26,651 nt of DNA, taken from positions 1 through 26,651 of the IMG/VR virus record IMGVR_UViG_3300034280_000691. One strand, given 5' to 3'. Position numbers and translations under genes: made by a program. Origin of the DNA: a virus. Numbering within the stretch: position 1 is the first letter of the stretch; each line of letters opens with the position of its first letter. Below are positions 4,684 through 26,651 of this stretch, piece after piece. The notes under the pieces were generated by a model, which was not told where the DNA came from, ran no database searches, and worked only from the letters and a program-made list of their open reading frames with translations.

Positions 4684-5445
4684 ATGGAAAATCAAATCTT
4701 TACAAACCGTACGAAGGCATCATCTAGGCCTCTCGGGTCAGTTGGTACATATCTAGGAAAAGTAGTGCGCATTGCTGACAATGGAGATTTATTCGTAAAA
4801 ATCCCAAATCTATCAACCAACAGCGTATTCGGCCCGTGTAAAAACTTTGCGGGTCATGCTCCTGTTGACATATATGTAATTGTGTCATTTCTTGACTCGC
4901 GCCTAGATGAGCCAGTCGTAACTGGTGTTGAAACAAGCGTGAGGTACAAAGTTGGCGACACTGGCCCTGGTGGTGGAATTGTATTTTATGTTGACAGATT
5001 TGGTGAATATACATTTCTTGATTTTGGGTACCTTGAAGTGTCCGCATCCCATGCAGACACATCGCGAACTTGGGCTCAAGCCTCAAAGCAGACCAGTAGT
5101 GTGAGTGGCGCCTCTGGCAAAGGACTGGGGCGCGGTTATCAGAATACGATTGACATCGTTGAACAGGGAAATACCAGCGCAACTACATGTGCGGCAAAGT
5201 ATTCTTCAGAGTTTACAGATCAAGGAATCAGCGACTGGTACCTACCAAGTCTTGGTGAGCTTGGGCTGCTGAGGACGAATATTCAGCTTGGCATAGATGG
5301 GGAATCTTTTTGGAATGCTCAGTATTGGAGCTCAACTCAGTACACAAACGCAAACGCTTATGCCCAAGACTTTGTAACAGGAACTGTGGCAACACCATCA
5401 AAGGCCACGAATTTACGCACGCGACCTATCCGGCGCTTCAAGTAA
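4684..5445 (+). CDS. Central spike protein: gpV/gp5-like OB fold fused to a C-type-lectin-like DUF1566 domain
   Basis: Residues 1-88 form a small beta-barrel-like region (GTYLGKVVRIADNGDLFVKI, then VDIYVIVSFLD), the OB-fold signature of gpV/gp5 spikes that sit under the hub. The expected C-terminal beta-helix is missing. Residues 88-253 are instead a DUF1566 (Lcl C-terminal) domain: KVGDTGPGGGIVFYV, GYQNTIDIVEQGN, SDWYLPSLGEL, YWSSTQY and a final RTRPIRRF. This family has a C-type-lectin-like fold related to formylglycine-enzyme-type and Mtd-type binding domains. The same domain type begins the fibre protein at 19209. Position between hub and wedge genes supports a baseplate role. The fusion suggests a ligand-binding face near the tail tip, which is inference. 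Confidence 0.8.
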   Translation: MENQIFTNRTKASSRPLGSVGTYLGKVVRIADNGDLFVKIPNLSTNSVFGPCKNFAGHAPVDIYVIVSFLDSRLDEPVVTGVETSVRYKVGDTGPGGGIVFYVDRFGEYTFLDFGYLEVSASHADTSRTWAQASKQTSSVSGASGKGLGRGYQNTIDIVEQGNTSATTCAAKYSSEFTDQGISDWYLPSLGELGLLRTNIQLGIDGESFWNAQYWSSTQYTNANAYAQDFVTGTVATPSKATNLRTRPIRRFK

Positions 5446-14464: not shown

Positions 14465-17517
<3,053 letters not shown>

Positions 17518-17518
<1 letters not shown>

Positions 17519-18432
17519 TGGCTGGTGTTCTTTCTGGAGCAGTTGGGAGTAAAAAACGAGTCACTCCCACTGTTGAATATCTTGTTATTGCAGGTGGTGG
17601 TGGAGCAGGCGGTTCATCTGGTACTAGCATTGCTGGCGGGGGTGGCGGTGCTGGTGGCTATCGCACAAACGTAACAGGAGCAACATCTGGTGGAGGCGCT
17701 TCTGCTGAAGCACCTTTCGTTGTAACTCCTGCTATTTCTTACACAGTTACCGTTGGTGCTGGAGGGAATGGTGGTACTGGTTTTGTTATGGGTACTAACG
17801 GTTCCAACTCAGTCTTTAGTACGATTACATCTCTTGGTGGCGGTGGCGGCTCCACTTGGGCAGTTGGGAATGCTCTAACTGGTGGTTCTGGCGGTGGTAC
17901 TGGAGAAAATGGTCAATCAAGTGGACCTGGCTCAGGTACAACTGGACAGGGTTTTGCTGGTGGAGATGATTCTGGATACGACAGTGGTGTTCCCTCGGCT
18001 GGAGGCGGTGGAGGTGGGGCAGGTGGAGCTGGTGCAAATACGGCAAACACTTCAACTGGTGGAAACGGAGGAGTTGGGGTATCTTCATCTATAACTGGTA
18101 CTGCCATTTTTCGTGGCGGTGGCGGCGGCGGAGCAGGAAATACAGCAGGCTCAGGAGGAAATGGCGGTGGTGGCGGAGGTCGTGCATCAACTACGGGAGC
18201 AGGCACCCCTGGCACGGCAAACACTGGCGGAGGTGGCGGTGGTTCTCTAACAAACGCAAATGAAGCAGCACAGACTGGTGCCGCTGGAGGTTCAGGAGTA
18301 GTTATTATCCGCTATCCAGATAGTTATGAAGACTTATCTTCCATTGGTGCTGGTTTGACTTATACAAAAACAACTCCGACAGGTTACAAAGTTTATACTT
18401 TTACAGCAGGAACAGGAGCAGTGACTTTCTAA
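17518..18432 (+). CDS. Glycine-rich fibre-tip adhesin
   Basis: I start it at ATG 17518 (MAGVLSGAVG), which overlaps the upstream stop as taATG; an in-frame ATG at 17488 has no ribosome site. The protein has 304 residues. VEYLVIAGGGGAGG leads into about ten runs of Gly-Gly, with YTVTVGAGGNGG between them and GGSGVVIIRYP near the end. A C-terminal beta strand pair (YKVYTFTAGTGAVTF) closes it. This layout, VxYLVVAGGGGGG ... GGSGVVIIRY ... F.GTG.ITF, is widespread in phage receptor-binding tips, where poly-Gly segments pack as polyglycine-II sandwiches (known for S16-type gp38 adhesins). Likely tip of the preceding collagen fibre. Confidence 0.8.
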
Positions 18433-19205
18433 TGCCAGCAATTACTTTTCCCGCCTCTCCTTACCAGTATCAGGTTTATACTGTTGGCTCTAAAAGTTGG
18501 CAGTGGGATGGTTCGTACTGGGTTGCTTACTACAACGAAGGCGTAGATGCTGTCTATGGCAACGGCTATGACGGTGATCAAACATTTGACGGCACCACGA
18601 CTATTACGCTTGGTGATTCAAGCACTATTGCCCCATCGAGTAGCGTCTATTCGCTGACTCAAGATGTGTACTTCAATGACTTAACCATTAACGCAAACGT
18701 GCGGATTGCTCCAAACGGATACCGCATTTTTGTAAAGAATATGTTGAAGTTCAATTCAGACTCAACAATTGGTTTTACTACTGGTTACTCAACTGCTGGT
18801 TCAATCAATCAAGGTGGCGCTGCAGCAACGTCGGTCTCGCACTCATTAGGTGGTTCTGCTACTGGTTACACGGCGACTCCCCCTACTGCCGCAACAGGTG
18901 GAACCAATGGCTACAGAAACGCACCGCAGGCGGTAAATGGATATGTAGTTGCCCTTGGCAGTTTTGCATTCCTGCGTGGTGGTGCTGGAGGTTTAGGTCA
19001 AGCTGGTGGAGGAGTTGTTATTATAGCGGCTCGCTACATCGCTGGACCATCTTCTGGAACTGGCTACATTAAAGCTCCCGCAACCGCTCCTGCTGGCGGT
19101 GGTGTTGTTATCGTAGTATCGTCTGCTGGTGAACTCCCAGCATCTATTTCAACAGATGTTACTGGTCAGAACCCGGGAACTTATATTTACGTCCAACAGG
19201 TATAG
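18432..19205 (+). CDS. Fibre-tip protein, compact paralogue of the next gene
   Basis: A 257-residue protein that starts at a taATG overlap. Its first 35 residues (FPASPYQYQVYTVGSKSWQW) are the 'WQWDGSYWV' attachment motif. Residues about 37-125 (AVYGNGYDGDQTF, then DVYFNDLTINANVRIAPNGY, RIFVKNMLKF) match the middle domain of the next gene (DTVYGTGSDGNVV, DMYYKNLTINSGVILKTNGF). A short Gly-rich stretch ends in GGGVVIVVSSAGELP and TYIYVQQV, also paralogous to the next gene's end. It lacks both the lectin-like head and the His-rich insert. It is probably a second version of the same adhesin tip. Confidence 0.75.
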   Translation: MPAITFPASPYQYQVYTVGSKSWQWDGSYWVAYYNEGVDAVYGNGYDGDQTFDGTTTITLGDSSTIAPSSSVYSLTQDVYFNDLTINANVRIAPNGYRIFVKNMLKFNSDSTIGFTTGYSTAGSINQGGAAATSVSHSLGGSATGYTATPPTAATGGTNGYRNAPQAVNGYVVALGSFAFLRGGAGGLGQAGGGVVIIAARYIAGPSSGTGYIKAPATAPAGGGVVIVVSSAGELPASISTDVTGQNPGTYIYVQQV

Positions 19206-19208
19206 AAA

Positions 19209-21356
19209 ATGACTCAATATTTTATTGGTGACAGGGGACCTGCGGGCGGAGTTGTATTTATAACTCCAAGTACAGCCGGTAACACAACTGGCCAATACTT
19301 TGAGATGTTCACTGCCGCTGCTGATGCACAAAGAACGTGGTCACAGTCAACTCCCGTAAACTATCAATCAACTGCCGTATCTGGTGCTGACGGAACAGCA
19401 ATCGGAACTGGATATCAAAATACTTTAGACATTATTGCTCAAGGCAACACAAACACAAGCACGTGCCTTGCTGCGTACTGCAGGTCACTAACCCAGAATG
19501 GGTACTCTGACTGGTTTCTTCCTTCAAAAGACGAGATGAATCAGATATATGTAAATCGCGCGATTCTAAACAACTTTGTAACGCTTTTGCCAACTTACTA
19601 TTGGACTTCGTCTGAGTCTAGCGCCACTGAAGCGTGGGGACAGTACGGAGAGCCAACTTCATATCAGCAGTTAGCAATTAACAAAGGCGGGTCAAACTAT
19701 GCCCGGCCAGTGCGGATGTTCTCTGCTCCGTCATATACATATAGAGCAAGCCTCGGAAACGACACGGTCTACGGAACTGGTTCTGATGGAAACGTAGTTA
19801 TCGCCACAGACACTACGTTGACATCAGACATGTACTACAAGAACCTTACGATTAACTCCGGCGTAATACTTAAAACAAATGGATTCCGTGTTTTTGTTCA
19901 AGATACTTTGACCCTCTATGGATACATTGGCAGCGGAACAAATACTGGCGCAGAGCCAACATCAAGCGTACCCAATGGATCACTTTATGGGACTTTGGCA
20001 ATAACTGCCCTTACATACTCGGTCGGTGGTGCTGGAGGCGGTGCAACTCAAGCAACAGCTACGCAACTGCCAAAATCTTACCGTCAGCGTATTCAAACAT
20101 TAGTGTCTGGAGTTGTCCTTGACGCAGTAGACGGGAACAACTACATCGTTGGTGGCTCAGCAGGGACTACTGGAGCTGCCGGCTCAACCACTCCTGCCTT
20201 AACAAACTCTGACACATGGCCAGGAAAAGCAGGAACAACTAACGCTGGTTCTGCTGGATCAAACGGTCTGTATTCTCCCAACGCAGCAACAGTCAATGCT
20301 CCTGGGGGAAAGGGCAATACAGGCTACACAAGCACAGTGGTTGCAGGTTCGGCAACTGGAGCAACTGCTGGCCCAGGCGGCTCTGGCGGTGGCGGCGGTG
20401 TTGGTGGAGCGTTAGTTTTAATTGTTGCAAGAAACGTTGTTGGAACTGGAAAGATAATTTCAAGAGGCATAAGTGGATCTACTGGGTCTGCTGGTACTGC
20501 CGGAAACCCTGGAACTGCTGGTTCTGCATCACCTGGCGCTGGTGCAACTGCTTACAATAGCACTACACAAAGAGGAACTTCAGGAGTTAACCTATTTGAC
20601 GGGCACCAAGCTCCAACGATGCGCCATACGGTGAACCCGCACCACTCAACGAACCCGCACCATACGACGAACCCGCACCATACGACAAACCCTCACCACA
20701 CTTTCCACTCTGGTGCGTATCACCATCACATTTATAACTTTAGAAACTTGCATTCGCACTCGAATAACGTGAACCCAAACACATCGCGCACGCACTCTGG
20801 GCACTTTCACGGAATACATAACTTTGGACACGGCAACAATGCTCATTACTACCACATTGGGAGCAAGCACGGTACTCAAATTCACGTTGCGCCGAGCCAG
20901 AGCGCACAGCCGCACGCCAACTCGTACGCACATCACCAAGAAAATGGGTACGCAGGACACTTATCTGGCGGACGAAACGAGCCAGGCTGGAACCTTGGTT
21001 ACCAAAACCACGCTGCTAGGTGGTCTGAGCCACATACAAGCTCGCACCATACGGTAAACGGCGGACACCACTCTGTAAACGGTGGGCACCACTCGGTAAA
21101 TGGCGGTCACCATAACCAAGACTACGCAGGTGGAGCTGGTGGCGCGGGTGGAACGGCAGGAACTGCAGGAGCCGCCGCACCAGCCGTTACTGGAGGAACT
21201 GGTGGCCGAGGGGGAGCTGGGGGAGGCGGTGGCATTATTGTCATTACCGAAACTACTCCATCAGGAATAAGTTATGATGTACTTCCAGGGCAGACAGCAG
21301 GCTCTGGATCCTATTCAGCTAACTCTGGTTATACTTATATAGTTCTTAATGCATAG
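19209..21356 (+). CDS. Fibre protein: lectin-like head, beta domain, glycine-rich shaft and His-rich insert
   Basis: A 715-residue protein. Residues 1-175 are a DUF1566/C-type-lectin-like domain (IGDRGPAGGVVFI, GYQNTLDIIAQGNTN, YSDWFLPSKDEMNQIY, YYWTSSES, final YARPVRMF), paralogous to the end of the spike at 4684. Residues about 180-245 repeat the beta domain of the preceding gene. Residues about 260-465 are Gly/Ala/Thr-rich, with GGSGGGGGVGGALVLIVAR. Residues 471-635 hold 38 histidines by my count. The last 80 residues are Gly-rich and end in YTYIVLNA. HxH motifs (HSHS, HFHG) could bind metal, as HxH sites do in T4 fibre needles. The receptor is unknown. Confidence 0.82.
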   Translation: MTQYFIGDRGPAGGVVFITPSTAGNTTGQYFEMFTAAADAQRTWSQSTPVNYQSTAVSGADGTAIGTGYQNTLDIIAQGNTNTSTCLAAYCRSLTQNGYSDWFLPSKDEMNQIYVNRAILNNFVTLLPTYYWTSSESSATEAWGQYGEPTSYQQLAINKGGSNYARPVRMFSAPSYTYRASLGNDTVYGTGSDGNVVIATDTTLTSDMYYKNLTINSGVILKTNGFRVFVQDTLTLYGYIGSGTNTGAEPTSSVPNGSLYGTLAITALTYSVGGAGGGATQATATQLPKSYRQRIQTLVSGVVLDAVDGNNYIVGGSAGTTGAAGSTTPALTNSDTWPGKAGTTNAGSAGSNGLYSPNAATVNAPGGKGNTGYTSTVVAGSATGATAGPGGSGGGGGVGGALVLIVARNVVGTGKIISRGISGSTGSAGTAGNPGTAGSASPGAGATAYNSTTQRGTSGVNLFDGHQAPTMRHTVNPHHSTNPHHTTNPHHTTNPHHTFHSGAYHHHIYNFRNLHSHSNNVNPNTSRTHSGHFHGIHNFGHGNNAHYYHIGSKHGTQIHVAPSQSAQPHANSYAHHQENGYAGHLSGGRNEPGWNLGYQNHAARWSEPHTSSHHTVNGGHHSVNGGHHSVNGGHHNQDYAGGAGGAGGTAGTAGAAAPAVTGGTGGRGGAGGGGGIIVITETTPSGISYDVLPGQTAGSGSYSANSGYTYIVLNA
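20631..20702 (+). repeat. Four tandem 18-bp units coding NPHHxT-type repeats
   Basis: Units start at 20631, 20649, 20667 and 20685. The second and third are identical (acgaacccgcaccatacg), the outer two differ by a few bases. The frame is kept, so copy number can vary without breaking the gene. Confidence 0.85.
21054..21113 (+). repeat. Three tandem 21-bp units coding VNGGHHS
   Basis: Units start at 21054, 21075 and 21096, the last lacking its final Ser codon. They differ mostly at third codon positions, so they appear older or more strongly selected than the 18-bp repeat at the left end of the insert. Confidence 0.8.
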
Positions 21357-21364
21357 GAGAAAAA

Positions 21365-21607
21365 ATGGAACTTGAAAACATTACAACACAAGAAAAAATC
21401 TTGATCTTGGGTCAAACTGTTACCCAACTTGAAACGGAAATCTATCGTTCTTGCGTGGTTGTTGGGATTGACATAAATACATTAGATCCAGCAACATATT
21501 CGTACGAGGTTCCAGTTGTTCAGCATGAGTATGTAAAGATAAGGCAGTCACTTGACTCCCTTGCTTTAGTCAAGGCAGAATTAGAAAATCTCAACGCTAC
21601 GACATAG
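21365..21607 (+). CDS. Small helical protein of unknown function (fibre-linked)
   Basis: An 80-residue protein with a strong site (GGAGaaaaaATG) just after the last fibre gene. Two helices (QEKILILGQTVTQLETEIYR and EYVKIRQSLDSLALVKAELEN) flank a short extended segment with DPATYSYEV. No motif identifies a family. Small helical proteins directly after fibre genes are often fibre-assembly chaperones or caps. That is the best guess, but it is not supported by sequence beyond position and helix content. Confidence 0.55.
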   Translation: MELENITTQEKILILGQTVTQLETEIYRSCVVVGIDINTLDPATYSYEVPVVQHEYVKIRQSLDSLALVKAELENLNATT

Positions 21608-21618
21608 AAAGAATAAAT

Positions 21619-22035
21619 ATGAAAAGGGTTATCTACGTACCTTCCGAACTTGACGTAGAACGCGGAGAGCAAATATCCCGATCACTGAATCTTCCAATAC
21701 AGATCGGTGACTCATTGAATACAGAAAATATGGATTTCAATAGAAAAGAAATTCAAATTCTTTCAATCCCTAGCATAAAAGAAGCAGACATACCAGCCAA
21801 CGTATATTCGCAAATCACTTTTCCCTGCAACTTTACTGATGACTGGAGTAATTTTCTAAAGTCAAAAGCAGTGCTTGTAGCAAAAAATCAAAAAAATGAA
21901 TATTTATGCTCACCGCAGTTCAGAGAAATACATTTTTTGAGATTTGGAATGCGAATATGGGAACCGGGGGAATACGTTCTCTCGTTGATAGTTGATGATA
22001 GTGTTGTTTTTGAAGGCGGAACAACGGCACTATGA
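21619..22035 (+). CDS. Conserved-looking hypothetical protein before the oxygenase
   Basis: A 138-residue protein that overlaps the following 2OG oxygenase start (ATGA at 22032), indicating translational coupling. The C-terminal part (REIHFLRFGMRIWEPGEYVLSLIVDDSVVF) looks like a beta-sandwich edge of the 'W.PG.Y.l.v..D' type. The N-terminal part is mixed and has no signal peptide. I recognise no catalytic residues. Its coupling suggests it belongs functionally with the enzyme block, perhaps as a scaffold or substrate. Confidence 0.55.
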   Translation: MKRVIYVPSELDVERGEQISRSLNLPIQIGDSLNTENMDFNRKEIQILSIPSIKEADIPANVYSQITFPCNFTDDWSNFLKSKAVLVAKNQKNEYLCSPQFREIHFLRFGMRIWEPGEYVLSLIVDDSVVFEGGTTAL

Positions 22036-22619
22036 AAAAGTACGAGACAACCGAAAACCCAGTTGTAGGAGTATCCGTCTACCGAGGCGCTTTTGACGCA
22101 ACGAAATTTCTTTCAATCCTTGAAAGTTCATGCGGGTCAACTCAAGATCCGCTCATGTGGGAAGATTCCTACATAGGGCCACAGGCGGGTCAAGTATCTG
22201 ACTACAGAACATCTGTTAACTGCGACCTTGATGTCATTATGTCAAACAATAGCAAGCACCAGCTGCGTCCAGAACTATTGATCATAAAAGATAAAATAGA
22301 CATGTGCGTAAGTGACTATGCAAATCAGTACAGATTGTCTATTGGGGTGCATGAGCCGTATCAGGTCTTAAAGTATGCGGAGGGCGCACATTACCGCGCT
22401 CACCACGACAGGAGTAGTGAAAACGGCAGGACGGTAAGCGTCGTTGCGTCGCTTCAAGCGCCGGAAGAAGGCGGAGAACTTGAGTTCCCATTTTTTGACT
22501 ATACATTTAAGGCAACTACAGGGAGTTTGATCGTATTTCCATCAACTCACCCATACACGCATATAGCGCATCCAGTTAAGAAAGGACTAAAGTACTCTTT
22601 AGTTACGTGGTACATATGA
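22032..22619 (+). CDS. 2OG-Fe(II) oxygenase 1, prolyl-4-hydroxylase-like
   Basis: A 195-residue protein with the double-stranded beta-helix pattern of P4H-type dioxygenases. The iron motif HxD is H124-H-D126 (GAHYRAHHDRSSE). The strand after it (TVSVVASLQAPEEGGELEFP) is the typical 'LN...GGEL.FP'. Distal His is H177 (THIAHPVKKGLKYSLVTWYI), with H180 as an alternative, and K187 is the likely 2-oxoglutarate Lys. It would couple decarboxylation of 2-oxoglutarate to substrate hydroxylation. The start overlaps the upstream stop (ATGA), and its stop overlaps the halogenase start in the same way. Substrate unknown; the collagen-like fibre is a reasonable candidate. Confidence 0.88.
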   Translation: MKKYETTENPVVGVSVYRGAFDATKFLSILESSCGSTQDPLMWEDSYIGPQAGQVSDYRTSVNCDLDVIMSNNSKHQLRPELLIIKDKIDMCVSDYANQYRLSIGVHEPYQVLKYAEGAHYRAHHDRSSENGRTVSVVASLQAPEEGGELEFPFFDYTFKATTGSLIVFPSTHPYTHIAHPVKKGLKYSLVTWYI

Positions 22620-24100
22620 GCAAAGATAAAGAACAGATAGAAATAGCGGTAGTTGGAAGCGGAACTGCAGGATTTGTTGCAGCACTTATGCTCAAGGCCG
22701 CATTCCCGGTCCTAGATATAAAACTGGTGTCTTCTTCAAAAATAGGGATCATAGGGGTAGGTGAAGGATCAACAGAGCACTGGAAGCAGTTTATGCATCT
22801 ATGCAAAATACCACTACTTGAGATGCTGAAAGAGACAGAAGCAACGCACAAGTATGGGATCAGGTTTGAAGGATGGTCAAACCATCATCCAGACTACTTC
22901 CATAGCGTTTCTGGAGATGACTCAATTTTTGCCTTTGGCTTATTCCCAATGTACATGGGATTCATTAACAACAACATGCTTCTCACAAATCAGACGACAT
23001 CTGTTGGTCTGATACAGAATAAAATTCGCATAGAAAATTTACATGAAAACACAAATCAATACCATTTCAACACGCATAAGCTAAATGAGTATTTTGACAA
23101 ACTCTGCTTTGAGCGAAAAATAAAAAAGATTGATGGTGAAGTTAAAAAAGTAAATATTGACTCAGAAATTGGAAGCATTGAATCAATTGATCTTGAAGAT
23201 GGAAGCAATGTAACTGCTGATTTTTGGTTTGACGCAACTGGGTTTAGCAAAGTCCTAATGTCAGCACTTGGGAATACGGAATGGGAGTCATTCAGCGAAT
23301 ACCTTTTGTGCGACTCGGCATTTGCGTTCCCAACTGAATCAGATCCATCTGGAGAAATACGTCCATACACAAGAGCAAGAGCGCTTTCTGCTGGTTGGGC
23401 GTTTGAGATACCAGTTCTTAGCCGCCGAGGAAATGGTTACGTGTACTCATCCAGGCACATCACTGAAGACAAAGCAGTTGATGAAATGTCTATGCTTCTC
23501 GGAATTGATGTTCAACCAGCTAAGACATTCAGGTTTGACCCAGGATACCTAAAGAAGTCTTGGGTAAAAAACTGCGCAAGCATCGGACTTGCCAGTTCTT
23601 TCGTTGAGCCACTTGAAGCAACATCAATTGGAACGTCAATCATGCAGATGCAGATGATAATTCCATACCTTGCTTCATACCAGCAGCGCTATGAGCACTC
23701 GCAAAATCACTACAATAAGCGCATGGAAGCAATGATGGATAATATTCTCACGATGATAAGACTCCACTATCACACAGATAAAACAAACAGTCAATTCTGG
23801 GTTGATGCTAGAAATGCAAAACTTAATGACGAATTGCAAGATTGCTTAAATCTATGGCAGGAAAGAACCCCAACTAGGTATGACTTCCCCGGAAATAGCA
23901 ATCAGTTATTTGGGGGAGCGCATCTGATACATGTTGCTCAAGGGCAAAATGTGTTAGACAGAAGTAACATAGAAACAGCATTAGTGCGAATGCAACTGAA
24001 AGACCTTGTTGGCGAGGCAATGTCACAATCTCGAGTCAGAAGATCAAATCATGAACTAATTGACCACCGAGAATCACTGGAGAGTATTGATGTTTGGTAA
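22616..24100 (+). CDS. Flavin-dependent halogenase (tryptophan-halogenase family)
   Basis: A 494-residue protein from ATG 22616, which overlaps the oxygenase stop (ATGA); a GTG at 22607 would lie inside the upstream gene. FAD motif GSGTAG is at 14-19, and GVGEGST, the second halogenase FAD motif, is at 47-53. K79 in ATHKYGIRFEGW matches the catalytic Lys of PrnA-type halogenases (same residue number here). The WxWxIP signature reads W261-A-F-E-I-P266, with the second Trp replaced by Phe. GNGYVYSS and FVEPLEATSI (E334 candidate catalytic Glu) follow. These enzymes need FADH2 from a reductase, O2 and halide to make HOX. A viral halogenase, VirX1, is known from a marine cyanophage and is iodide-active. 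Substrate here is unknown. Confidence 0.87.
   Translation: MSKDKEQIEIAVVGSGTAGFVAALMLKAAFPVLDIKLVSSSKIGIIGVGEGSTEHWKQFMHLCKIPLLEMLKETEATHKYGIRFEGWSNHHPDYFHSVSGDDSIFAFGLFPMYMGFINNNMLLTNQTTSVGLIQNKIRIENLHENTNQYHFNTHKLNEYFDKLCFERKIKKIDGEVKKVNIDSEIGSIESIDLEDGSNVTADFWFDATGFSKVLMSALGNTEWESFSEYLLCDSAFAFPTESDPSGEIRPYTRARALSAGWAFEIPVLSRRGNGYVYSSRHITEDKAVDEMSMLLGIDVQPAKTFRFDPGYLKKSWVKNCASIGLASSFVEPLEATSIGTSIMQMQMIIPYLASYQQRYEHSQNHYNKRMEAMMDNILTMIRLHYHTDKTNSQFWVDARNAKLNDELQDCLNLWQERTPTRYDFPGNSNQLFGGAHLIHVAQGQNVLDRSNIETALVRMQLKDLVGEAMSQSRVRRSNHELIDHRESLESIDVW
24079..24084 (+). promoter_or_regulatory. Shine-Dalgarno deciding the start at 24090
   Basis: GGAGAG lies 5 bases before ATG 24090, within the halogenase 3' end. 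It beats the in-frame TTG at 24060, which has no such signal. Confidence 0.55.
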
Positions 24101-24908
24101 TAGGAAACAAATAAAAACATACAGAGATGTAAAAAAACCAAAACCAGGCGAAATAGTACTAGTACCAAGAGATAACAGAATCAACGAAACAAAACCATTT
24201 GTAAATTCAGCAAAAACGCTTCCGGAGTGGTTCAAAAGCATAGATAGAAAAAATGGATCAATTAGATCATGTTCTGGGACATTGGATTTTTTACAGCTAG
24301 GCATAACTGTTCCAATGTGGACAAATGCCTACTTTACGCCAAATCTCAATCTTGGTGCTCAATGGGAGGTGAACTTAGATCAGATTTCATATGCTGAGCC
24401 ATTTAATAACGAGCCATTCCCATTCCATGCTGTTGGAAGATGCCCAATGACTGACATGCGTGGAATTGAGAGAAGTGCATTCCCTAAGTTAGTTAACCCT
24501 TGGTGCTTCATGACTGCGCCGGGGTGGTCGTCAATTGTCCTTCCCCCGCTATTTGAACCAAGCAAAGACTGGCAAACAGTGCCATCAATAGTACATACAG
24601 ACTTTTATCACAACTTAAATCTTGTTCTTAACGTGACTGCAGAGTCAGCTTTTACGATAAAAGCAGGAACTCCAATGATGCATATCATTCCGTTCAAGCG
24701 CAACAAAGATATTGATAAAATAAATATTGAAGATGAGTCTTTGTTTAGGTTTGTTACTGCACGTGGATTTGGGGAAACTGGAGTAATTCCAACACAAACA
24801 ACAGGAAGATCCTACAAAACGTATCAACGCAAAATTGACTACGAAGTAGAGCAAGTAGAGTCATCAAAAAACAGTTTCCTAAAAAGAATAAAAAATGGCA
24901 AAAGTTGA
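24090..24908 (+). CDS. Conserved phage protein of unknown function (DUF6065-like)
   Basis: A 272-residue protein starting at 24090 (MFGNRKQIKTYRDVKKPKPG). The C-terminal two thirds show AFPKLVNPWCFMTAPGWSSI, PSIVHTDFYHNLNLVLNV and IKAGTPMMHIIPFKR. That order (a 'NPW...TP.GYS' strand, a D..Y segment and 'KGTP..Q.IPFKR') recalls DUF6065-type proteins, which occur in aquatic phages near oxygenases. I cannot confirm the name. The protein is probably a beta-rich fold. It overlaps the halogenase by 11 bases and the next oxygenase by 14, so it belongs to the same operon. Enzyme or substrate carrier are both open. Confidence 0.6.
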   Translation: MFGNRKQIKTYRDVKKPKPGEIVLVPRDNRINETKPFVNSAKTLPEWFKSIDRKNGSIRSCSGTLDFLQLGITVPMWTNAYFTPNLNLGAQWEVNLDQISYAEPFNNEPFPFHAVGRCPMTDMRGIERSAFPKLVNPWCFMTAPGWSSIVLPPLFEPSKDWQTVPSIVHTDFYHNLNLVLNVTAESAFTIKAGTPMMHIIPFKRNKDIDKINIEDESLFRFVTARGFGETGVIPTQTTGRSYKTYQRKIDYEVEQVESSKNSFLKRIKNGKS

Positions 24909-25398
24909 ATATATAAAAAATGTAATAACAGACTTCTACAAGGAAGAAATACTTCAAGAAATAAATAGAAGTTTTGACACGCCAATATGGAAAAGCAGCC
25001 ATAAGTGGAGCAGTGTTCTCACCAACAATATGCGCCCGATACTTATGCGTGATCTGGAAAATGAAAAAGAGACACTTCACAGCATGCTCTGCCTGAAGAC
25101 AGAAACATTAAAAAACCTTAGGCCAATGACCCCAGTTCTTTACTTGTGGGAACCTGGGTCACACATAGACTGGCACAATGATGCTGGATGGGCAGCTGCT
25201 GCTTCAATATACCTGACAACTCAGGACAGGCATGGCGGAGGCGCTTTTGGCTGGGAAGAGGATGATGGAACAATGAAGATGATATTTCCAGAAGAGTGCT
25301 CAGCGATTATTCAGAGCGAAAATACTAATCACCACGTAACAATGATCCACCCAACAAATACTTTTTATAGAATGTCAATACAGATCTTCTATAAGTAA
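24895..25398 (+). CDS. 2OG-Fe(II) oxygenase 2
   Basis: A 167-residue, short DSBH oxygenase. HxD is H94-N-D96 in PGSHIDWHNDAGW. A strand ASIYLTTQDRHGGGAFGW follows, then FPEECSAIIQSENTNHHVTM with the distal His at 146 or 147. The final YRMSIQIFYK includes R159, the likely 2-oxoglutarate ligand. It is not closely similar to oxygenase 1, so the two probably have different substrates rather than being a recent duplicate. It is smaller than most P4H enzymes and similar in size to the small phage oxygenases found among structural genes. Its start is 14 bases inside the preceding gene. Confidence 0.83.
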   Translation: MAKVEYIKNVITDFYKEEILQEINRSFDTPIWKSSHKWSSVLTNNMRPILMRDLENEKETLHSMLCLKTETLKNLRPMTPVLYLWEPGSHIDWHNDAGWAAAASIYLTTQDRHGGGAFGWEEDDGTMKMIFPEECSAIIQSENTNHHVTMIHPTNTFYRMSIQIFYK

Positions 25399-25409
25399 CG
25401 GAAGCAAAA

Positions 25410-26126
25410 ATGACTCCACATTACAACGTAGTTATATGCACACCAGGTGACATTGCCTACAAAGAGTACATACGTTGTTTATTGGTGACAATTAAATATA
25501 TGGAAGAAAATAACATAACGTGGACGTGCGTGCTTGAATCTTCCCCGCACATTCCAAAAACAAGGGCACTAATACTAAATAATGGCTACCTGGATAATGG
25601 TGGCTTTCAAGAATTCCTGTCAAATGAGAGGCTAAAAAAATGGCAAACATTTGGCGGCAAGTTTACCTATGACCAAATTCTGTGGATTGATAATGACATA
25701 GTCTGGTCAATAGACGACTTTAAAAAGATACTTAGCCACCAAGAAGAAGTAGTTTCAGGCGTTTACATGTTTGATAACAACAAAAGCGTTGTTGCCTCTA
25801 TGGAGCCAGGAAAGATACTTGAACTTGATGAGTTGCAAGAAATGAACCAGACTCAACTACATGAAGTTCATACTTGTGGAATGGGCTTCTTAAAGGTCAG
25901 GTATGGAGTTACTGAAAAACTTATGCATCCTATTTTCCTGCTGCACCAATATGATTATTTTGTTAAAAGCCTAAATCAGATGTTTACTTTTTTCACAACA
26001 GACGAAGATACGTCATTTTGCGCTCGCGTCAGGGAGAGCGGGAGCAAGGTATATCTTGATCCTTCAATTAGGGTTGGACACTTTAAAAGAGTTGTACTAT
26101 CTGCTCCACAAATTGAAAACCAATAA
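25410..26126 (+). CDS. Glycosyltransferase, GT-A fold
   Basis: A 238-residue protein. The DXD-type metal site is D94-N-D96 in YDQILWIDNDIVWS, after a Rossmann-like N-terminus (NVVICTPGD) and helices. HTCGMGFLKVR (154-164) and TDEDTSFCARVRESGSKVYLDPSIRVGHF (197-225) follow the GT2/GT-A plan: an acidic motif before the acceptor region, then a His near the end. It should move a sugar from a nucleotide donor; donor and acceptor are unknown. There is no membrane segment, so it is likely cytoplasmic. It lies between oxygenases 2 and 3. In this setting it may glycosylate hydroxylated or Thr-rich fibre segments, which is inference. Confidence 0.8.
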   Translation: MTPHYNVVICTPGDIAYKEYIRCLLVTIKYMEENNITWTCVLESSPHIPKTRALILNNGYLDNGGFQEFLSNERLKKWQTFGGKFTYDQILWIDNDIVWSIDDFKKILSHQEEVVSGVYMFDNNKSVVASMEPGKILELDELQEMNQTQLHEVHTCGMGFLKVRYGVTEKLMHPIFLLHQYDYFVKSLNQMFTFFTTDEDTSFCARVRESGSKVYLDPSIRVGHFKRVVLSAPQIENQ

Positions 26127-26127
26127 A

Positions 26128-26651
26128 ATGACGTATTGCAACATACAAAACTCAATTGCATTATACGACAAGGCCGTCCCAGATCAGTTATGCGATGAAG
26201 TAATTGATTTCTATGAATCAAATAAACACCTCCACATGCAGGGGAAAACAGCTGCTGGCATATCTGATATGAAAGTGTCAACAGACATGGCAATAGCCTC
26301 TCCGTCAATTCCGATTTCCGAAGAATCTGATTACAGGGTTAGAACGGAACTCGATGATTACTTGGCAGACTTTGTGAATATTTCCATACGTAACTACATC
26401 TCAGTTTTTGATTGGATAAAATGTGCACAGTCAACACAAGATACTGGTTACCAAATACAAAAATATATCGCTGGTGAGGGGCACTACAAAGAACATATTG
26501 ACGGCGATCCCTGGACGGAAAGATTAAACCAAAGGATATGCGGAATTATTTTGTATTTAAATGATGTTCACGAAGGCGGCGGAACGTATTTCAGGCATCA
26601 GGACATGTATGTAGACGCAAGAAAAGGCAGAGTAGCAATATTCCCAGCAAG
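26128..26651 (+). CDS. 2OG-Fe(II) oxygenase 3, prolyl-hydroxylase-like (3' partial)
   Basis: Open reading frame from ATG 26128, one base after the glycosyltransferase stop, to the window end; 174 residues are present and no stop is reached. The segment QIQKYIAGEGHYKEHIDGD gives HxD as H123-I-D125. RICGIILYLNDVHEGGGTYF is the P4H-type 'LYLN....GGGT.F' strand. GRVAIFPA is the conserved stretch before the distal His, which should lie just beyond the window. It is the third oxygenase in the block and resembles bacterial and phage P4H-like proteins most clearly of the three. Confidence 0.85.
   Translation, partial: MTYCNIQNSIALYDKAVPDQLCDEVIDFYESNKHLHMQGKTAAGISDMKVSTDMAIASPSIPISEESDYRVRTELDDYLADFVNISIRNYISVFDWIKCAQSTQDTGYQIQKYIAGEGHYKEHIDGDPWTERLNQRICGIILYLNDVHEGGGTYFRHQDMYVDARKGRVAIFPA

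Follow-up and report, generated by a model that had tools for sequence, protein, structure and literature searches.

Phage-encoded modification of virion proteins is known for glycosylation, and the tailoring cassettes of ribosomally synthesized and post-translationally modified peptides (RiPPs) include halogenases that act on peptides. Halogenases and 2-oxoglutarate (2OG) oxygenases have already been reported from aquatic phages (PMC2984593 and PMC10452541; VirX1), and the flavin halogenases among them have long been known without a natural substrate, with antibiotic protection and metabolite synthesis offered as guesses (PMC2984593 and PMC7824862). Among adhesins, Pam3 gp24 is a solved glycine-rich protein whose hypervariable tip is the proposed receptor-binding site (PMC9608196). 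Here, we describe a locus in IMGVR_UViG_3300034280_000691, a virus fragment of 26,651 bases analyzed over its entire length (the window), in which two fibre genes, FIB0 and FIB, are linked to a flavin-dependent halogenase (HAL), a DUF6065-like protein (P7084), and 2OG oxygenases. Across related loci, the conserved core is FIB0-FIB-HAL-DUF6065, usually joined by unk138-OG1, and, on balance, this unit is probably a protein-tailoring module that serves the fibre and follows a RiPP-like logic. The parts are of known kinds, and what is new is their pairing with a single adhesin family; no description of a fibre-linked halogenase module was found in the open-access literature, as represented mostly by titles and abstracts. 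The genes concerned are the following, all on the plus strand.

18432..19205, +, FIB0, conserved glycine-rich fibre protein that opens the conserved unit (homologue alignment)
19209..21356, +, FIB, fibre/adhesin (Lcl_C, E 1e-6, below the cut-off; homologues at the same place in cassettes)
21365..21607, +, s80, 80-amino-acid protein after FIB (homologous open reading frames in cassette loci)
21619..22035, +, unk138, beta-rich, adaptor-like protein (homologues beside an oxygenase gene; structure model)
22032..22619, +, OG1, 2OG-Fe(II) oxygenase, prolyl-4-hydroxylase-like (PF13640, E 3.4e-13)
22607..24100, +, HAL, flavin-dependent halogenase (Trp_halogenase PF04820, E 8.1e-98)
24087..24908, +, P7084, DUF6065-like protein with a dUTPase-like fold (phrog_7084, E 9e-24)
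24895..25398, +, OG2, weak but probable 2OG oxygenase, lineage-specific (PF13640, E 0.0015)
25410..26126, +, GT, probable GT-A glycosyltransferase, lineage-specific (phrog_1574, E 6e-31; phrog_34859, E 4e-6)
26128..26651, +, OG3, prolyl-4-hydroxylase-like 2OG oxygenase, truncated where the contig ends (PF13640, E 2.5e-6)

Each locus scan comprised the best 80 loci, so the frequencies given here describe nearer relatives, not all of nature. In the halogenase scan, FIB0 and FIB lie beside the halogenase in 38 of the 80. Three scans were queried with FIB0 alone, which avoids conditioning on the enzymes; combined with the earlier halogenase-scan loci, they gave 242 loci with the FIB0-FIB pair, which collapse into 93 clusters at 90% FIB0 identity, 2 of them truncated and 91 with readable flanks. 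P7084 is present in all 91 readable clusters and HAL in 69. When P7084 alone served as the query, HAL was found in all of the best 80 loci, and in each of the 12 loci without FIB0, the cassette lies at the contig start. The sequence-only reading had proposed that the enzymes are coupled to the fibre genes, and this is strongly supported: the neighborhood across related phages is not a random, non-conserved one, and the linkage is kept through rearrangements. Identities also correlate pairwise between HAL and FIB0 (rho 0.65) and between HAL and P7084 (rho 0.79). Plain synteny, that is, a late-gene block inherited among related phages in which the enzymes came to lie next to the fibre fortuitously, could produce some of this pattern, given that close contigs inflate raw counts, that structural modules are often syntenic, and that HAL status corresponds to one branch of the FIB0 tree. 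However, the unit is kept in 91 clusters, with a median FIB-HAL distance of 1.6 kb although FIB0 identity drops to 32%, in several gene orders (fibres before enzymes, enzymes before fibres, and convergent), in both orientations, and in varied genome contexts. Already weakened by these results, the synteny explanation appears highly improbable.

The constant members of the unit are FIB0, FIB, and P7084; HAL is constant in one large branch, where s80, unk138, and OG1 are mostly present as well. OG3, f11 (~353 amino acids), and f16 (~234 amino acids) are variable members, and OG2 and GT, evaluated as candidates for the core, were rejected as such: among cassettes, they occur solely in the window and in loci L002 and L003. 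Because of this restriction, the set of three oxygenases, a halogenase, and a glycosyltransferase, which the sequence-only reading had taken for one pathway, represents a local variant of a broader module.

Beyond DUF6065, unk138, and the oxygenases, the module has no constant gene for a carbohydrate or metabolite pathway, a finding that bears on the main rival idea, namely that the enzymes synthesize a small molecule or alter a host glycan and adjoin the fibre since both serve late infection or attachment. GT in the window and the existence of multi-halogenase loci speak for such an activity, and a different halogenase/2OG cluster, in cyanophage SSM6a, has been proposed to decorate the capsule or to yield a halogenated secondary metabolite (PMC7824862). 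Yet nucleotide-sugar, carrier, and scaffold-synthesis genes are all missing from the constant set, and the most constant partners, through rearrangement, are the two fibre genes and DUF6065. Because no further pathway gene is constant, synthesis of a metabolite or glycan fits the constant fibre partnership less well, and we consider it unlikely.

FIB0, which has no Pfam or PHROG match, retains ~60 nearly invariant positions across 37 aligned homologues from halogenase loci. Neither FIB0 nor FIB has a match among 50,697 isolate phages, so that the family is known here solely from environmental contigs and points to a group of aquatic phages not yet sampled. A genome scan for prophage or metagenome-assembled genome (MAG) contigs found none with P7084 and only short, weak matches to FIB0, one of them on a 3.2 kb contig of a Phycisphaerae MAG.

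FIB of the window consists of an Lcl_C-like N-terminal domain, a FIB0-like domain, Gly-rich motifs, a His-rich hypervariable segment, and a conserved C-terminal Gly motif (GGAGG...RGGAGGGGGIIVIT). The hypervariable segment has a fixed position, between the Gly-rich repeats and the C-terminal motif, and is thus flanked by Gly-rich motifs in the manner of gp38/gp24-type adhesins. In S16 gp38 and Pam3 gp24, likewise, glycine-rich motifs bracket hypervariable, proposed receptor-binding loops, and a chaperone acts on the fibre (PMC9608196); unlike these proteins, FIB has no sequence match to isolates and combines a His-rich segment with linked modifying enzymes. The small protein s80 is a candidate fibre chaperone, with homologous open reading frames in 35 of 41 cassette loci that follow FIB even where the order is rearranged. 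The Lcl_C-like start is the type of the window and L002; the FIB of L010, for example, lacks it and opens with the FIB0-like domain. A Lcl_C/DUF1566-like domain (phrog_4245) was detected both at 19209-19720, the FIB N-terminus, and in a second protein of the window, at 4684-5445.

The densest 100 amino acids of the window FIB contain 26 His, and the runner-up among the open reading frames of the window reaches 9; across halogenase lineages, the median for this densest stretch is 25% His. In 68 halogenase lineages, the segment contains 18.5% His versus 0.6% in the remainder of the protein. Between lineages with at least 70% FIB0 identity (median 78%), the segment is only 30% identical versus 45-48% in its flanks, with the His content kept. 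His spacing is periodic, at ~6-7 residues (lag 7, z 10.5), and HxH and HHH motifs are frequent. This periodicity and these motifs speak for a second rival, in which the segment would be a metal-binding adhesin tip that needs no modification, with the enzymes acting elsewhere, for example on another virion protein. T4 gp37 has HxH iron sites. For a fibre of a marine Alteromonas phage, six potential iron-binding domains are reported (PMC11705849). A metal-binding tip alone, however, leaves the strict tie to the halogenase unexplained, and we regard it as quite improbable that this is the whole account; metal binding and modification are compatible and could coexist.

On sequence grounds, HAL is a clear flavin halogenase: besides the PF04820 match, it carries the flavin adenine dinucleotide-binding GxGxxG motif (GSGTAG) and the catalytic Lys and Glu, K82 and E334 (in EPLEATS), both invariant in the alignment and the counterparts of RebH K79 and E357. 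The WxWxIP-like motif reads GWAFEIP in the window, with Phe in place of the second Trp, and mostly WxWEIP in relatives. The viral enzyme VirX1 (6qgm) and the tryptophan halogenase family PF04820 share with HAL the fold family, the GxGxxG motif, and the catalytic Lys and Glu, as well as a motif resembling WxWxIP, but HAL is only distantly related to VirX1 (phmmer E 1.6e-41), its nearest solved chain being 6y1w (E 2.9e-54), and is linked to one fibre family. In the cyanophages and pelagiphages P-SSM2, Syn1, S-H38, S-SCSM2R, and HTVC008M, 2OG oxygenases likewise lie close to a halogenase, and in HTVC008M this group sits within the structural genes; in these isolates, however, the halogenase is only ~30-38% identical to HAL, FIB0 and FIB are absent, and the conserved unk138-OG1-HAL-DUF6065 order is not seen. 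A separate, larger halogenase arrangement without FIB0 was also observed, with three to five halogenase paralogues per locus (L044, L045, L046, L049, L053, L055, L062, L065, and, with three copies each, L052 and L085); L049 additionally contains 2OG-like genes and, downstream on the opposite strand, three tandem glycine-rich (~30% Gly) fibre-like proteins.

P7084 has a DUF6065 match in 8 of 34 homologues (best E 4.8e-8), and its AlphaFold2 (AF2) model (predicted local distance difference test score, pLDDT, 88) matches dUTPase in Foldseek (E 3.5e-4), placing it in the DUF6065/dUTPase superfamily by both profile and fold. An active dUTPase was considered but is not supported: by eye, the catalytic Asp of motif 3 (GxID) is replaced, the window sequence being SIVHTDFY, and because His stands at the expected place of the catalytic Asp, P7084 is not filed as a dUTPase. 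No literature on DUF6065 was found. A phrog_7084/DUF6065-like gene also occurs in the haloarchaeal tailed viruses HSTV-2 (L324) and HF2 (L326), between nucleotide-metabolism and tail genes, a placement that neither supports nor refutes the role proposed for P7084. Homologues of unk138 usually adjoin an oxygenase gene, rearranged loci included, and the AF2 model of unk138 (pLDDT 96.5) is matched by Foldseek to immunoglobulin (Ig)/TIG/filamin-like domains (E ~2e-4).

Under the tailoring interpretation, FIB0 and FIB would form a receptor-binding fibre in which a Gly-rich scaffold presents the hypervariable, His-rich distal segment, and the co-translated enzymes would modify this segment before or during assembly. 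HAL would act on electron-rich side chains, His first and then Tyr or Trp; the prolyl-4-hydroxylase-like oxygenases on Pro, Asn, or His; DUF6065, with its dUTPase-like fold, and the Ig-like unk138 might have docking or adaptor roles; and extras peculiar to a lineage, in the window OG2 and GT, could attach further groups, so that FIB may bear +16 Da, halogen, or hexose groups. The likely benefit would be a wider host-recognition chemistry, or protection and stability of the tip. As in RiPP cassettes, a gene-encoded substrate would adjoin halogenase, oxygenase, and transferase genes, but in this case the modified protein would be a large virion fibre, and no leader peptide or protease was seen. 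A fibre gene tightly tied to one halogenase subset provides a concrete candidate protein substrate for phage halogenases. If the interpretation is correct, phages extend receptor binding with side chains beyond the genetic code, which bears on host-range prediction from sequence, and the module is a source of new protein-acting halogenases and hydroxylases for chemistry.

In the 22 clusters without HAL, the FIB segment contains 0-10% His per 100 amino acids and is rich in Tyr/Asn or in Asn/Pro/Tyr. The loci of this kind that were examined carry other enzymes, e.g., P7084 in two or more copies, a ferredoxin paired with an FkbM-like methyltransferase, or a PF11397 N-acetylglucosamine (GlcNAc) transferase. 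The last is found at L231:8343-13879 (E 3e-28) together with an Asn-Pro-Pro-repeat fibre, two DUF6065-like genes, and a prolyl-4-hydroxylase-like oxygenase. This locus resembles the Skp1 pathway of Dictyostelium and Toxoplasma in its 2OG prolyl hydroxylase plus GlcNAc-transferase logic (PMC3515798); Skp1 modification is eukaryotic, however, with a single target protein and no halogenase, and the window has no GlcNAc-transferase. The contrast suggests a link between the enzymes present and the composition of the tip. Tyr is low in HAL lineages (3-12 per densest 100 amino acids), some of which have no Trp, and the fibres without HAL are Tyr-rich; neither residue is favored as the sole halogenase target. 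A bolder proposal is that the virus halogenates and hydroxylates His and other side chains in its own fibre tip with an enzyme set matched to tip composition (halogenase with His-rich, GlcNAc-transferase with Asn-Pro-rich, and methyltransferase with Tyr-Asn-rich tips), yielding a modular code of non-canonical side chains by which hosts would be recognized; we advance this tentatively, as a possibility that is rather unlikely at present. Among individual loci, L231, L285, L286, L290, and L292 lack HAL and have Asn/Pro/Tyr-rich fibre repeats with almost no His; L212:8614-17744 encodes a (YGYS)n/NYG-rich fibre together with two oxygenases, two DUF6065-like proteins, a ferredoxin, and a weakly matched FkbM-like methyltransferase (E 0.003), and further relatives of L212 without HAL are found among L247-L284.

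Several observations weigh against a dedicated tailoring module. HAL presence changes once on the FIB0 tree, and because its status switches on a single branch, the His contrast amounts to one independent event; independent co-variation of HAL and His-richness is accordingly not claimed, the Mann-Whitney p of 1e-10 being a raw value. In six HAL lineages, His makes up no more than 6-11% of the densest 100 amino acids, a few halogenase lineages have no OG1, and no flavin reductase was recognized in the enzyme block of the window. Furthermore, virion genes are often syntenic anyway, and related halogenase and 2OG groups in cyanophages sit away from the FIB0/FIB fibre family.

Within the window, baseplate and tail genes are followed by collagen-like fibres, then by FIB0/FIB and the enzyme block. 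Two genes precede the conserved unit.

14465..17518, +, collagen-like/tail-fibre protein, context on the upstream side (tail-fibre and collagen-like minor-tail families in PHROG)
17488..18432, +, fibre-like protein rich in glycine, immediately upstream and outside the conserved core (phrog_2295, E 4e-48; few loci with weak matches)

The sequence-only reading had recognized a flavin halogenase, 2OG oxygenases, a glycosyltransferase-like protein, and two proteins of no known kind downstream of the fibre genes, and open reading frames for all of these are indeed in place. It had put the block directly after the fibres; the fibre neighborhood holds, but the conserved 80-amino-acid gene s80 (21365-21607) intervenes. 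The short overlaps it described are present, namely ATGA at 22032/22035 and overlaps at 22607/22619, 24090/24100, and 24895/24908, with other gaps of 1-11 nt. Promoter-like sites in 17400-26651 number 8 versus a mean of 15.6 in shuffles, i.e., fewer than in shuffled sequence.

Three 2OG oxygenases had been named, of which OG1 and OG3 are clear and OG2, under the curated PF13640 cut-off, is weak. OG1 combines a PF13640 match above the cut-off with a conserved facial triad, H124xD126...H177 (H124 in 44 of 44 aligned sequences, D126 in 40, and H177 in 42), and its nearest solved chains are prolyl 4-hydroxylases, at weak similarity (E 3e-4). OG3 exceeds the PF13640 cut-off even though it is truncated at 26651, and its full ortholog of 211 amino acids (L002:13008-13643) matches prolyl 4-hydroxylases with E 2e-7. 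The assignment of GT to GT-A glycosyltransferases draws on phrog_1574, a profile with no named function, on phrog_34859, a glycosyltransferase profile, and on a DND motif identified by eye; GT has no Pfam match and no PDB match below E 0.05.

The position of the module differs among phages: in the window, it comes after baseplate and tail-fibre genes, unlike L002, where it lies between capsid-like and neck-like genes (L002:1544-2575 and 19093-20411, judged from sequence), and some phages might use FIB as a head fibre. The same downstream families, f29, f31, and f32, follow the module in L002, L013, L023, L024, L029, and L030. At the downstream module end, 23 of 41 core loci encode a membrane-protein-like product of ~96 amino acids (f8; L002:13640-13921 and homologues).

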